From a virus: DNA of 28,448 nt. The position numbers were made by a program, and so were the translations under genes. Positions 8,691 to 24,469 of the stretch are shown here, piece by piece; the stretch's first letter is position 1, and every line of letters begins with the position of its first letter. The stretch spans positions 1 through 28,448 of the IMG/VR virus record IMGVR_UViG_3300047200_000053. The stretch is one strand, 5' to 3'. Below the pieces are notes generated by a model. It ran no database searches and was not told the DNA's origin. It saw nothing but the letters and a program-made list of their open reading frames with translations.

Positions 8691-8722
8691 AGAGCTGGGA
8701 GGAGATCCTGGCTCTTTTTTTT
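8691..8722 (+). terminator. Intrinsic terminator after gp16 operon
   Basis: A 10-bp stem, AGAGCTGGGA pairing with TCCTGGCTCT (two G-T pairs), closes a GGAGA loop and runs into eight T residues. This is a textbook Rho-independent terminator and ends the operon that includes gp13-gp16 and the secreted protein. Confidence 0.9.
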
Positions 8723-8725
8723 GTA

Positions 8726-8733
8726 TATAAATA
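8726..8733 (+). promoter_or_regulatory. T4-type late promoter (TATAAATA) for gp17
   Basis: This is a perfect copy of the T4 late consensus, beginning 3 nt after the T-run of the terminator and 34 nt before the gp17 start. Unlike four other late sites here, it is followed by CCTTTAC rather than the A-rich extension. Confidence 0.75.
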
Positions 8734-12980: not shown

Positions 12981-13026
12981 AAATAAAATTTATCTATTTT
13001 GACTTACCTTTAACTTCACTGAACAC

Positions 13027-13071
13027 AAATACTCTGGTAGGAATCGTCCTACGCTTTCTACCGGAGTATTT
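13027..13071 (+). promoter_or_regulatory. Hairpin sequestering the ribosome binding site of the homing endonuclease
   Basis: The 14-nt arms at 13027-13040 (AAATACTCTGGTAG) and 13058-13071 (CTACCGGAGTATTT) pair fully, with one G-T pair, around a 17-nt loop. The right arm contains GGAG (13063-13066), the ribosome binding site 8 nt before the ATG at 13075. An alternative hairpin, GTAGGA/TCCTAC around ATCG (13037-13052), would open the stem and release GGAG. T4 homing endonucleases are known to be repressed by similar structures. Confidence 0.8.
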
Positions 13072-13074
13072 AAA

Positions 13075-13695
13075 ATGCAAAAATATGGGTTCATTTATAT
13101 TTGGTATGACAAGAAACACAAAAAGTTTTATATCGGAAGACATTGGGGTACAGAAGATGATGGGTACATTTGTTCTTCTACAAATATGAGAAACAATTAT
13201 AATGGTCGCCCTCAAGATTTCAAACGTAGAATAATTGCAAAAGTATACTGTCGTCAGCAACTAGTTATTGAAGAACAAAGATGGCTCGACATGATCAAGC
13301 CAACAGAATGTAAGTACAAATATTACAATACGACACTAAAAGCTGATACTCCTTCAATGCGAGGCAAACAACATTCTGAAGAAACAAAAATAAAAATGAG
13401 TATTGCAGCTACAGGTAAACCAAAAAGCGAAGAACACAAACAAAAGCTTAGAGAAATTAATCTCGGCAAAAAATTATCAGAAGAAACTAAAAGAAAAATT
13501 AGCGAGAACCACAATAGAGATTATACCGATCCAATCTTTCGAGCAAAAATGTCGTTAGCTGCAAAAAATAGATCTGCTGAAACCAGGAAAAAATTAAGTG
13601 AAAATGCAAAAAGAAGAAGAGCGGAAGGCACTTTTGGTAGAGGCATTAAATCTCTGATAAATAGCAATAAATTACTTCAAAGGAGTATCGGTTAA
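13075..13695 (+). CDS. GIY-YIG homing endonuclease (Seg / I-TevI type)
   Basis: This 206-residue free-standing homing endonuclease is inserted between sheath and tube genes. The N-terminal GIY-YIG nuclease domain is seen in [22 protein letters not shown] (the GIY element appears as GFIYIW and YIG as FYIGRH), with a probable catalytic Glu in EEQRW. Residues about 98-175 carry repeated NUMOD3-like DNA-binding units: [36 protein letters not shown] and RSAETRKKL. It presumably cuts gene 18/19 DNA of related phages and spreads by repair. The gp19 ribosome binding site (AGGAG at 13681) lies inside its last codons, and its stop overlaps the gp19 ATG. Translation is probably held low by the upstream hairpin. 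Confidence 0.9.
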
Positions 13696-14297
13696 TGACA
13701 TTCAGCATTAATGAGTTCAAATCAAACGGTCTTGTATTTGGAGGCGCAAGACCGGCTATGTTCGAAATTACTCTTCCTCAATGGCCCGGAGCACTTCCAG
13801 ACGCATCGAGAAAGCTGTCGTTTCTAGCAAAAGCCGCATCGTTGCCTCCATCTATCCTTGACCCAATCGAAATCCCTTACATGGGGCGTAGAATCAAGGT
13901 TGTAGGCGATAGATCGTTCCCAGCTTGGTCAATCACAGTAATGAACGACGAAGACTTCTTGCTTCGTGAATCGTTCGAACAGTGGCACCAGTTGCTGAAC
14001 CAAAGAGAGCAGAACGTTTCTGCTATTGGTACAGAACCTGCAAACTACAAGAAGGATATCATCGTTACTCAGCTTTCAAAGGGTGGCGGAGATCGTCCAA
14101 TCTCGACAAGCTCGGCTTCAGTACAGCCAGCTTCCGGGTCGATATATACTTATACATTAGTTGGTGCTTTCCCAACAGTTGTAGATCCAATTCAGTTGGA
14201 CTTCGAAGCTGTCAATCAGGTAGAGCAGTTCAACGTTGAATTCCAATATGATTATTGGGAACCACGTGAAATCCGTGAAGGCGTTTCGCCAGAATAA
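13695..14297 (+). CDS. gp19: Tail tube protein gp19
   Basis: This 200-residue protein forms the rigid inner tube stacked inside the sheath (T4 gp19: 163 aa). Family features are FEITLPQWPG near the N-terminus, KAASLPPSILDPIEIPYMGRRIKVVGDR, FPAWSITVMNDEDFLLRESFEQW and the C-terminal YTLVGAFPTVVDPIQLDFEAVNQVEQFNVEFQYDYW. Its ribosome binding site sits within the upstream homing endonuclease gene, so the mobile gene has been fitted in without separating the tube gene from its translation signal. Confidence 0.93.
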   Translation: MTFSINEFKSNGLVFGGARPAMFEITLPQWPGALPDASRKLSFLAKAASLPPSILDPIEIPYMGRRIKVVGDRSFPAWSITVMNDEDFLLRESFEQWHQLLNQREQNVSAIGTEPANYKKDIIVTQLSKGGGDRPISTSSASVQPASGSIYTYTLVGAFPTVVDPIQLDFEAVNQVEQFNVEFQYDYWEPREIREGVSPE

Positions 14298-18906: not shown

Positions 18907-18914
18907 TATAAATA
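18907..18914 (+). promoter_or_regulatory. T4-type late promoter (TATAAATA) for gp23
   Basis: This is a perfect late octamer with the A-rich extension AAAACAAACC, 42 nt before the capsid gene. Together with the gp22 promoter it provides a gp23-only transcript, as expected for the most abundant virion protein. AAGGGAG serves as ribosome binding site. Confidence 0.8.
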
Positions 18915-18955: not shown

Positions 18956-20329
18956 ATGTCTAGAACAACAGAAGGTTCAATCCACGAGCAGTTAATCGCA
19001 AAGTGGAAGCCAATTCTTGAACACGAAGAACTACCTGGAATTAAGGATCTCAACCGTCGTAACGTTACAGCGGTTGTCCTAGAGAACACAGAAAGAGCAT
19101 TGAGAGAAAATGCTGCTTACTCAACACAGTTCCTAGTTGAAAGCCCAATCCCAGCTAACGCGATGAGAGCTTCATCATCGGATTCGTCAACAGGCGCAAT
19201 TGACACATTTGACCCTGTGTTGATCACCCTTGTTCGTCGTTCGATGCCTAACTTGATCGCATACGACATTTGCGGCGTACAGCCAATGACTGGTCCTACA
19301 GGACTGATCTTCGCAATGCGCGCACGTTATGCTAACCAGACAAACACTGAAACGTTCTACAACGAAGTTAACACTCAGTGGTCGTCAGTAACTGGTGGTG
19401 CAAACACGCTTGGTGACAAGCACGTTGGTACAGTTCCAGGTACAAACACACAGACATCTAACTTGGCTGCAACTGGCATCTACAACTACGGTGCTGCTAT
19501 GTCTACGCCACAAGCGGAAGCGTTGGGAACTGATTCCAACACAGCATTCGCACAGATGGCATTTAGCATTGAAAAGGTCTCTGTAACTGCAAAGTCAAGA
19601 GCTCTAAAAGCTGAATACACAATGGAACTAGCACAGGACCTTAAGGCAGTTCACGGTCTTGACGCTGAAACAGAATTGTCAAACATTCTGTCGACAGAAA
19701 TTCTTGCAGAAATCAACCGTGAAGTAGTTCGTACGATTTACGTATCGGCTGTTCAAGGTGCTGCAACACCAGGTGTTACAACAGCTGGTATCTTCGATCT
19801 TGACCTCGACTCAAACGGTCGTTGGATGGTTGAAAAGTTCAAGGGTCTGATGATGCAGATCGAAAAAGAAGCTAACCAAATTGCAAAAGAAACTCGTAGA
19901 GGGCGTGGTAATATCATCATCTGCTCGTCTAACGTAGCTTCGGCTCTGCAGATGGCTGGTTTGCTTGACTATACTCCAGCACTAAATTCAAACAATAACT
20001 TGTCGATCGACGACACAGGTAATACATTTGCCGGTGTTCTAAATGGACGTTATAAGGTTTACATCGATCCTTACGCAACAGGCGACTTTATGGTCGTAGG
20101 TTATAAGGGTGCAGGTGCATTTGACGCTGGCCTATTCTATTGCCCATACGTTCCTCTACAGATGGTACGCGCTGTGGATCAGGATTCGTTCCATCCAAAG
20201 ATTGGTTTCAAGACTCGTTACGGAATGGTAGCAAATCCATACGCAGAAGGTGCTACAGCAGGTGCTGGTGTAATCAATAAGGACTCAAACGTTTATTACA
20301 GACGCGTCTTGGTCAATAATTTAATGTAA
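18956..20329 (+). CDS. gp23: Major capsid protein gp23
   Basis: This 457-residue precursor of the head shell subunit has a HK97-like fold by family; T4 gp23 is 521. Conserved text includes STGAIDTFDPVLITLVRRSMPNLIAYDICGVQPM, TGPTGLIFAMRARY, KAEYTMELAQDLKAVHGLDAE and a C-terminal DQDSFHPKIGFKTRYGM with YRRVLVNNL. The N-terminal 62 residues are a probable delta domain: LVE at 60-62 matches the gp21 (I/L)-x-E rule and precedes SPIPANAM. No gp24 vertex paralogue follows, unlike T4. The gene is separated from the next by a promoter and a terminator. Confidence 0.98.
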   Translation: MSRTTEGSIHEQLIAKWKPILEHEELPGIKDLNRRNVTAVVLENTERALRENAAYSTQFLVESPIPANAMRASSSDSSTGAIDTFDPVLITLVRRSMPNLIAYDICGVQPMTGPTGLIFAMRARYANQTNTETFYNEVNTQWSSVTGGANTLGDKHVGTVPGTNTQTSNLAATGIYNYGAAMSTPQAEALGTDSNTAFAQMAFSIEKVSVTAKSRALKAEYTMELAQDLKAVHGLDAETELSNILSTEILAEINREVVRTIYVSAVQGAATPGVTTAGIFDLDLDSNGRWMVEKFKGLMMQIEKEANQIAKETRRGRGNIIICSSNVASALQMAGLLDYTPALNSNNNLSIDDTGNTFAGVLNGRYKVYIDPYATGDFMVVGYKGAGAFDAGLFYCPYVPLQMVRAVDQDSFHPKIGFKTRYGMVANPYAEGATAGAGVINKDSNVYYRRVLVNNLM

Positions 20330-20358
20330 AATATATACTATGTTGAATCTAGGTTCAA

Positions 20359-20366
20359 TATAAATA
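20359..20366 (+). promoter_or_regulatory. T4-type late promoter (TATAAATA) located upstream of a terminator
   Basis: This is a perfect octamer. If spacing is as in T4, transcription would start around 20372-20374, so the terminator hairpin at 20377 would form the very 5' end of the new RNA. The expected targets are the coiled-coil protein at 20450 and genes beyond. Confidence 0.65.
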
Positions 20367-20376
20367 GCAGAAGTGA

Positions 20377-20409
20377 AGGGGACGGGCCATTGGTTCGTCC
20401 TCTTTTTTT
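20377..20409 (+). terminator. Intrinsic terminator after gp23
   Basis: AGGGGACG (20377-20384) pairs with CGTCCTCT (20396-20403), extended inward by GGCC/GGTT across an ATT loop, and is followed by a run of seven T. It would stop the abundant capsid transcript. Confidence 0.85.
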
Positions 20410-20449
20410 GGTCATGGAGGTCCACCGAGAAAAGAGGAAACCAGCTATC

Positions 20450-20851
20450 ATGTCTTCAAACGATCGAAATTATAATGGTAGTTCGCAACTGGACCGATTG
20501 GAAATGACAATTGACAAAATTTCTCAAGTATCAAACACTCTTTCATATCAGATTTCATCGATCAACATGACTTTAGATTCACATGATACTTCGATTACAA
20601 AGTTTGACGATAAGCTATCAGAAATGGCAACAAAGGTCAACAACATCGATCTTGAGCTTGTTAGAATTTCTTCTAAGCTTGATGCTGCATTGAACGAAAG
20701 AAATGATCTGAAACAACAGCTTGCTGACCTAAAGAAATCGTCAATTTCAGTTGACCAATTCACACCAGTTCAGAGAGCAATCTACTTCGTAGCAACTTTT
20801 GTAGTAACAGGGGTACTAGGCGCAGTTCTAAATCTAGTAATCAAAAAATGA
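20450..20851 (+). CDS. Coiled-coil protein with C-terminal membrane anchor
   Basis: From the ATG at 20450 the protein has 133 residues. Residues 14-105 are a continuous coiled coil (SQLDRLEMTIDKISQ, MATKVNNIDLELVRISSKLD), followed by one membrane helix (AIYFVATFVVTGVLGAVLNLV) and a KK end. The open frame extends upstream to a TTG at 20390, but that start is inside the terminator stem; ATG 20450 has AAGAGGAAA at a normal distance. The architecture resembles XhlA-type or spanin-like phage membrane proteins. It overlaps the next small membrane protein by ATGA, suggesting a functional pair. No named function can be assigned. Confidence 0.7.
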   Translation: MSSNDRNYNGSSQLDRLEMTIDKISQVSNTLSYQISSINMTLDSHDTSITKFDDKLSEMATKVNNIDLELVRISSKLDAALNERNDLKQQLADLKKSSISVDQFTPVQRAIYFVATFVVTGVLGAVLNLVIKK

Positions 20852-20979
20852 TTCAAATTCGTAAGATATATAAATCAAATGTATTTCCGATATTGGCAGG
20901 ATTCATTTTAGCCGCAGCTCTGCCAATATCAGTATTGTATGCGTTTTTCCATTACATCATAACATTAATATTGCATTGA
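20848..20979 (+). CDS. 43-residue membrane protein coupled to the coiled-coil protein
   Basis: This short ORF begins at an ATGA overlap with the preceding gene, a strong sign of coupled translation. After a basic start (MIQIRKIYKS), residues 12-42 are almost entirely hydrophobic (NVFPILAGFILAAALPISVL, then YAFFHYIITLILH), enough for one long or two short membrane helices. The TGA is used in the ribosome binding site (TGAGGG) of the next gene. It may work with the coiled-coil partner as a holin/antiholin-like or spanin-like pair, which is inference. Confidence 0.55.
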   Translation: MIQIRKIYKSNVFPILAGFILAAALPISVLYAFFHYIITLILH

Positions 20980-20986
20980 GGGTTAA

Positions 20987-21508
20987 ATGAGCGCAATTGA
21001 CAATCTACCAACCAACGAGAACTTTCTATCGCCTCTTGGTTTTAAGTTTCAGATCAAAAAGACTCCTGGAATGAATTTCTTTGTTCAAAGAGTTAATCTT
21101 CCAGGAATGTCTATTCCAGATACTGGACAACCTAACCCATTCGTTAAGATTCCATTAGCGGGCGATCACATTGAATTTGAACCTCTTCAAGTAACGTTCA
21201 AGGTCGATGAGATCCTCGCTAATTATTTGGAAATTCACAATTGGTTAAGAGGACTTGGATTCCCTGACGAATTCAGACAGTACAAAGACCTTTCCAATAA
21301 ACCTATAATGTCAGGTCTAGGACTAACGTCAGATATTTCTCTACTAGTTCTTTCATCTGCAAAGAATCCAACATTCGATGTTGTGTTTAGAGATGCACAT
21401 CCAATAGGTCTAACGTCACTAACGTTTGACACTACAGATCCAGATGTCAACTATTTGACTGCAACAGCTACTTTCAAATACCTGTCATACTCGATTAATC
21501 CCGCATAA
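20987..21508 (+). CDS. Tail-tube-fold virion protein (gp3 position in cyanophages)
   Basis: This 173-residue protein resembles a compact gp19-type tube fold: FKFQIKKTPGMNFFVQRVNLPGMS, PFVKIPLAGDHIEFEPLQVTFKVDE, NYLEIHNWLRGLGFP, and a closing DVNYLTATATFKYLSYSINP. In cyanophage genomes a protein of this size between gp23 and uvsY is usually labelled gp3, tail completion/sheath stabiliser. The sequence itself suggests a tube-like beta-barrel, so it may be a tube initiator, terminator or specialised ring. It is distinct from the main tube gene at 13695. The ribosome binding site is GAGGG. Confidence 0.7.
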   Translation: MSAIDNLPTNENFLSPLGFKFQIKKTPGMNFFVQRVNLPGMSIPDTGQPNPFVKIPLAGDHIEFEPLQVTFKVDEILANYLEIHNWLRGLGFPDEFRQYKDLSNKPIMSGLGLTSDISLLVLSSAKNPTFDVVFRDAHPIGLTSLTFDTTDPDVNYLTATATFKYLSYSINPA

Positions 21509-23938: not shown

Positions 23939-24469
23939 ATGGCTAAAAATTATGTGAATAACAAGACACTGTTCGAGGTGATGTCAAAATACTGCGGAGA
24001 GTATCATCATAACAAATTAAATGGAATTGAAGCTCCTCGAATCCCCAATTACATTGGTGAAGCGCTTTATCTGATTGCAACTAGATTAGCGAACAAACCA
24101 AACTTCTCTGGATACACTTATAAGGATGAAATGATTGGTGATGGAATCGAAAACTGCTTAATGTATCTACATAACTTCAATCCAGAGAGAACCAACAATC
24201 CATTTGCATACTTCACTCAAATAATCAAGTTTGCGTTCATCAGACGTATTGAGAAGGAACGCAAGCAACAGTATATCAGAATCAAGAGTCTGTCTTCTGT
24301 TGAAGCTGAATTGGAGAATAATGGAGAGAATCATATCAAGCGATTGCCATCTAATGATTCTCACGATGAGTTTATCAGATCATATGAAAAGAAGTTGTCT
24401 GACAAGAAAAAACCAGCTATAGTCCCGCTAAATAATGTATCTGAGTTTTTTAATGAGGGATCAAAATGA
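23939..24469 (+). CDS. gp55: Late-transcription sigma factor gp55
   Basis: This 176-residue protein (T4 gp55 185) directs host RNA polymerase to TATAAATA promoters. Matches to T4 gp55 include YVNNKTLFEVM at the start, NFSGYTYKDEMIGDGIENCL, LHNFNPERTNNPFAYFTQII and IRRIEKERKQ. The C-terminus (VPLNNVSEFFNEG) mirrors the T4 SLDFLYE motif that binds the sliding clamp gp45, so clamp-coupled activation of late genes probably operates here. Several likely target promoters lie in the same window. It ends at an ATGA overlap with a small ORF. Confidence 0.95.
   Translation: MAKNYVNNKTLFEVMSKYCGEYHHNKLNGIEAPRIPNYIGEALYLIATRLANKPNFSGYTYKDEMIGDGIENCLMYLHNFNPERTNNPFAYFTQIIKFAFIRRIEKERKQQYIRIKSLSSVEAELENNGENHIKRLPSNDSHDEFIRSYEKKLSDKKKPAIVPLNNVSEFFNEGSK

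Follow-up and report, generated by a model that had tools for sequence, protein, structure and literature searches.

The window analysed here, the whole stretch of 28,448 nucleotides, belongs to a T4-like phage and is a fragment of 28 kb, from a virus record without other contigs. Within it the gene for the major head protein gp23, whose closest named counterpart comes from Stenotrophomonas phage DLP6 (69.6%), is followed by a short non-coding region, two small genes and a gp19-like tail-tube gene. The features needed for what follows are:

18907-18914, + strand: late promoter TATAAATA of gp23, 41 nt 5' of the gp23 ATG
18956-20329, + strand: gp23, major head protein (phrog_138, E 6e-168)
20330-20340, + strand: AATATATACTA, an element containing TATAC, directly after the gp23 stop
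20339-20362, + strand: AT-rich hairpin, from the MFE structure of 20330-20412
20359-20366, + strand: T4-type late promoter motif TATAAATA, exact match
20375-20409, + strand: intrinsic terminator, with a 14-bp stem (20375-20388/20392-20405), loop AUU and a U tract to 20409
20399-20437, + strand: alternative hairpin of 14 bp, 20399-20412 paired with 20424-20437
20433-20439, + strand: Shine-Dalgarno AGAGGAA of orf133, read from the sequence, 10 nt 5' of ATG 20450
20450-20851, + strand: orf133, with a predicted coiled coil and C-terminal membrane helix
20848-20979, + strand: orf43, small single-helix membrane protein, its start overlapping the orf133 stop
20987-21508, + strand: gp19-like second tail-tube gene, whose nearest full-consensus late promoter is that at 20359
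23939-24469, + strand: gp55-like late sigma factor (phrog_234, E 2.4e-50), the expected reader of TATAAATA

The two small genes (20450-20979), lying between gp23 and the second tail-tube gene, have no phage homologues. The product of orf43 is a 43-aa membrane protein, and orf133 shows a weak XhlA-like match; no homologue of orf133 was found in phages or viral contigs, the single match being a 30% coiled-coil hit in a MAG. With no homologue to compare, its start codon is uncertain, ATG 20414 being in frame besides ATG 20450. The window holds two differing gp19-like tail-tube genes, at 13695-14297 and 20987-21508, as does DLP6.

The terminator after gp23 is very likely real, given the stability of its fold, its near-universal presence in relatives and its published conservation. 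The hairpin is predicted at -20.6 kcal/mol with a z of -5.0, none of 200 shuffles was equally stable, and the G+C-rich stem-loop is followed directly by its U tract, the layout that defines an intrinsic terminator. Nearly every relative has a terminator at the same place after gp23, and T4-like phages conserve one after gene 23 (PMC1524935). An Rfam match to the greA leader over the same bases was rejected as sub-threshold (E 0.58, 20 bits vs 60 needed). Many flanks also carry a small second hairpin between the gp23 stop and the terminator (e.g., ACCAGGATAACTGGT), among them L010, L064 and the window at 20339-20362.

Ahead of this terminator lies an exact copy of the late promoter motif, TATAAATA. 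A sequence-only reading had placed a late promoter 5' of the gp23 terminator, and the order stands, with the motif at 20359-20366 and the stem beginning at 20375, although the gap between them is 8 nt (20367-20374) and not 10. That reading also pointed to the opposite order at 8691-8733, which we confirmed as a hairpin of -22.2 kcal/mol followed by TATAAATA at 8726. Since T4 late promoter motifs span -13 to -6 (PMC1524935), RNA from the 20359 motif would be expected to begin at about 20372, leaving 3 nt ahead of the stem.

On present sequence evidence it is probable that the 20359 motif acts as a promoter. Late promoters of T4 and cyanophages have the form TATAAATA, in which the first base can vary, or NATAAATA, and are read by gp55 (PMC1524935, PMC2984593), and the window resembles them in exact consensus, in encoding a gp55-type sigma factor and in carrying the motif before gp23, gp22, gp18 and the terminase gene. 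What is different is that the motif at 20359 comes ahead of the preceding gene's terminator and does not follow it. Four exact copies of TATAAATA occur in the window, where shuffles yield 1.23 +/- 1.27, and NATAAATA is found 12 times on the coding strand vs 2.3 expected, a count attained in 0 of 200 Markov runs, with none on the opposite strand of the window. Copies of NATAAATA are located 30-80 nt 5' of gp17, gp18, the first gp19, gp22 and gp23. A promoter is favoured by this strand enrichment, by the presence of a gp55 gene and by the lack of any further full-consensus motif from gp23 to the second tail-tube gene. It is favoured further by the absence from the window of the gp19-proximal promoter that many relatives keep. 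No NHTAAATA motif was seen between the terminator and ATG 20450, and the best other candidate in the region is a 7/8 match, TATAAATC at 20869, 110 nt before gp19. Cut off from gp23 by the terminator, orf133, orf43 and the second tail-tube gene would be left without a full-consensus promoter of their own, were it not for the one at 20359.

It also should be considered that the motif could be accidental, having arisen as TATAAATA in the AT-rich spacer between the small hairpin and the terminator, in which case orf133 and the tail-tube gene would be expressed by read-through from gp23 or from TATAAATC, whose distance from gp19 suits such a role. From base composition, the chance of finding the motif in the 46-nt spacer is 0.7% for TATAAATA and 2.5% for NATAAATA. 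The first bases of the motif overlap the 3' arm of the AT-rich hairpin, so the motif could be a by-product of that arm. Against an accident of this kind stand the marked enrichment of NATAAATA on one strand of the window and what is seen in relatives, and we regard it as possible but rather unlikely. A further idea, that the motif is simply part of the terminator's A tract, was ruled out for the window by the 8 nt between motif and stem; it does hold for a group of relatives described below.

For comparison across relatives, 278 distinct gp23 3' flanks were gathered in all, and the order of elements was counted in the first set of 272. Once an initial, over-strict terminator filter had been relaxed, a terminator was present in 270 of the 272. 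A late-promoter motif was found only after the terminator in 199/270, only before it in 9/270, on both sides in 1/270 and nowhere near in 61/270, so that the motif precedes the terminator in 10/270 flanks, the window among them. The promoter-before-terminator order is the reverse of that in nearly all relatives, but it departs only modestly from gene control already known in phages. As a whole the pre-terminator class is not above chance, since its counts over the 270 flanks lie near those expected from composition (NHTAAATA 9 vs 9.0, NATAAATA 4 vs 4.1, TATAAATA 3 vs 1.2), a total that agrees with an accidental motif. Where these motifs fall is another matter, and one that speaks against accident: they cluster in flanks that have none after the terminator (8/56 vs 1/177 clusters, Fisher 5e-5), and the association persists at p 0.01 when the endonuclease group is collapsed to one and the T4-type case dropped. 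No homologue of the window's exact junction was found in viral contigs.

Many relatives with the motif before the terminator have a second trait in common with the window, the TATAC element directly after the gp23 stop, which likewise favours a promoter over an accidental motif. The element occurs in 9/16 promoter-before clusters vs 12/224 others (p 4e-7, a count partly ascertained via an endonuclease query), and the association has p 0.01 when the window is left out and only flanks gathered prior to that query are counted. In several of the relatives whose motif precedes the terminator, the gene directly downstream encodes a GIY-YIG homing endonuclease, and querying with such an endonuclease uncovered further loci of the same layout. 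Promoter-before-terminator junctions 5' of GIY-YIG genes after gp23 are:

L324, positions 2877-2966
L318, L345, L389 and L393
L395, L401-L403 and L418

These endonuclease-type junctions are like that of the window in their site after the gp23 stop, in the order of motif and terminator and, in many, in the TATAC element. They differ in cargo, an endonuclease in place of orf133 and orf43, and in geometry, as motif and stem touch or overlap (gap -5 to +1), the window's gap being 8 nt. In them the U tract is the pairing partner of the promoter's AAATA, and transcription is predicted to start 4-10 nt inside the 5' arm, so endonuclease RNA would not form the full terminator. With a start inside the arm, the terminator would fail to act on the RNA of the endonuclease itself, while in the window the whole hairpin would stay on the new RNA. 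The window's junction may derive from an endonuclease insertion in which the enzyme was replaced by orf133 and orf43. When the window's spacer was aligned locally to all flanks, the best score was 31, no better than the average of 29.9 for shuffled queries, so that the case for shared descent with the endonuclease-type junction comes from an element of 5 bases. The window has a NUMOD3 GIY-YIG homing endonuclease gene of its own elsewhere (13075-13695), 44% identical to the L324 enzyme. Its leader (13018-13090) forms a hairpin of -24.8 kcal/mol with a GGAG ribosome site within the 3' arm, and GATAAATA at 13656, inside the gene, is positioned to suit a promoter of the next tail-tube gene.

If TATAAATA at 20359 is a gp55-dependent late promoter within the gp23 3' untranslated region, it would drive transcription of orf133 and orf43, probably extending to the second tail-tube gene. 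The new RNA would begin near 20372 and bear the entire terminator hairpin from about nucleotide +4. The earlier reading had supposed that polymerase cannot terminate so early, a premise contradicted by the 39% termination of E. coli RNA polymerase at +38 of a T7A1-tR2 unit in vitro (PMC6978380). Here the U tract spans +32 to +38, so that the new RNA would by default be expected to terminate in part, and it would no longer be the default that the hairpin terminates gp23 RNA only. The terminator would act on two transcripts, ending most gp23 RNA and stopping some of the new RNA early, at ~32-38 nt. Transcripts that read through would retain the hairpin as a 5'-terminal stem-loop, 3 unpaired nt followed by the -20.6 kcal/mol stem. 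By analogy with E. coli, where 5'-terminal stem-loops can slow mRNA decay according to work listed in PMC3997798, a protective 5' hairpin on the new RNA is plausible.

Such protection would equally be expected if, as in the earlier reading, the promoter were real and its polymerase never terminated at the hairpin, which would then be a one-way gp23 terminator and a protective 5' hairpin at once. The closeness of the hairpin to the predicted RNA 5' end (3 nt) and the mRNA-stabilising stem-loops listed in PMC3997798 fit that arrangement; we nonetheless judge it improbable in view of the 39% termination at +38, a figure measured for E. coli polymerase and not for T4-type late polymerase (PMC6978380). 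Far less probable still is a recycling unit, in which the polymerase ending gp23 RNA would slide back ~40-50 bp and restart at TATAAATA. Sliding and re-initiation at nearby or upstream promoters do follow intrinsic termination (PMC6978380), but this evidence comes from in vitro and not in vivo work, gp55 would have to be retained or re-bound instead of sigma-70, and the usual terminator-then-promoter order would serve equally well.

The leader of orf133 adds a feature that the sequence-only reading, sound in its anatomy and in the reversed order, had overlooked: a competing fold. The alternative hairpin (-19.3 kcal/mol) covers the Shine-Dalgarno and excludes the terminator fold. Its 14-bp pairing is the longest among 270 flanks, with a shuffle frequency of 0.0014, comparable pairings in relatives being typically 5-9 bp. 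At equilibrium the predicted openness of the ribosome site is 0.25, and it rises to 0.85 once the terminator hairpin is imposed. The leader may therefore be bistable, the terminator fold exposing the ribosome site and the alternative hiding it. When the hairpin forms, the site would be open; when it does not, its 3' arm and U tract would pair with the site and hide it. We treat this as a lead and not a finding, because U tracts and purine-rich ribosome sites pair easily by chance. The hiding fold lies downstream of the predicted start and could form in both RNAs; during transcription the terminator would be the first of the two to form, so that in read-through RNA the site is probably left open.

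The best explanation as a whole, to which we give a probability of about 0.55, is a working gp55-dependent promoter with a terminator that acts on two transcripts. The sequence itself shows the motif, the terminator and their reversed order, and the two exclusive leader folds are predictions; that the promoter is active, where it starts, that termination is partial, and any effect on RNA stability or translation are inferred.

Several known systems bear comparison. T4 gene e, I-TevI and segB have a late promoter inside the 5' arm of a hairpin that represses (PMC2988022, PMC3014915), and in these leaders and that of Aeh1 mobE a late promoter is closely coupled to a 5' RNA hairpin of the downstream gene and a fold can hide the ribosome site (PMC3014915, PMC2988022). 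The window has a similar coupling of motif and hairpin, and a predicted fold there may hide the ribosome site. In those systems late RNA lacks the 5' arm and so escapes repression. The predicted start in the window is 3 nt before the stem, so its RNA would keep the whole hairpin, and the hiding fold lies downstream of the terminator hairpin. It is the endonuclease-type junctions that resemble the I-TevI/segB/gene e design, as if moved from translation to termination. The PeSL promoter-terminator cassettes found in T4-like phages (Arbiol 2010, Comeau 2014; cited in PMC4503421) are like the window in placing a promoter and stem-loop beside variable cargo genes, but their promoters are of the early, sigma-70-like type, whereas the window's motif is of the late type. 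A more ambitious interpretation, which we think unlikely, would make the window's hairpin a built-in attenuator that sets how much RNA survives, protects its 5' end and keeps the ribosome site open, and would have the endonuclease cassettes fuse promoter and terminator so that the start disables their own terminator.

If real, the arrangement would give one short element three roles: to end the most abundant late RNA, to act as an attenuator and to cap the RNA of a cargo operon at its 5' end. It would also illustrate how genes inserted downstream of the capsid gene can come under late transcription once the normal promoter has been displaced. Together with the window, the endonuclease-type junctions form a set of natural variants in which the predicted start ranges from 3 nt before to 10 nt inside a similar terminator, and these may offer a direct test of promoter-proximal termination by T4 late polymerase.
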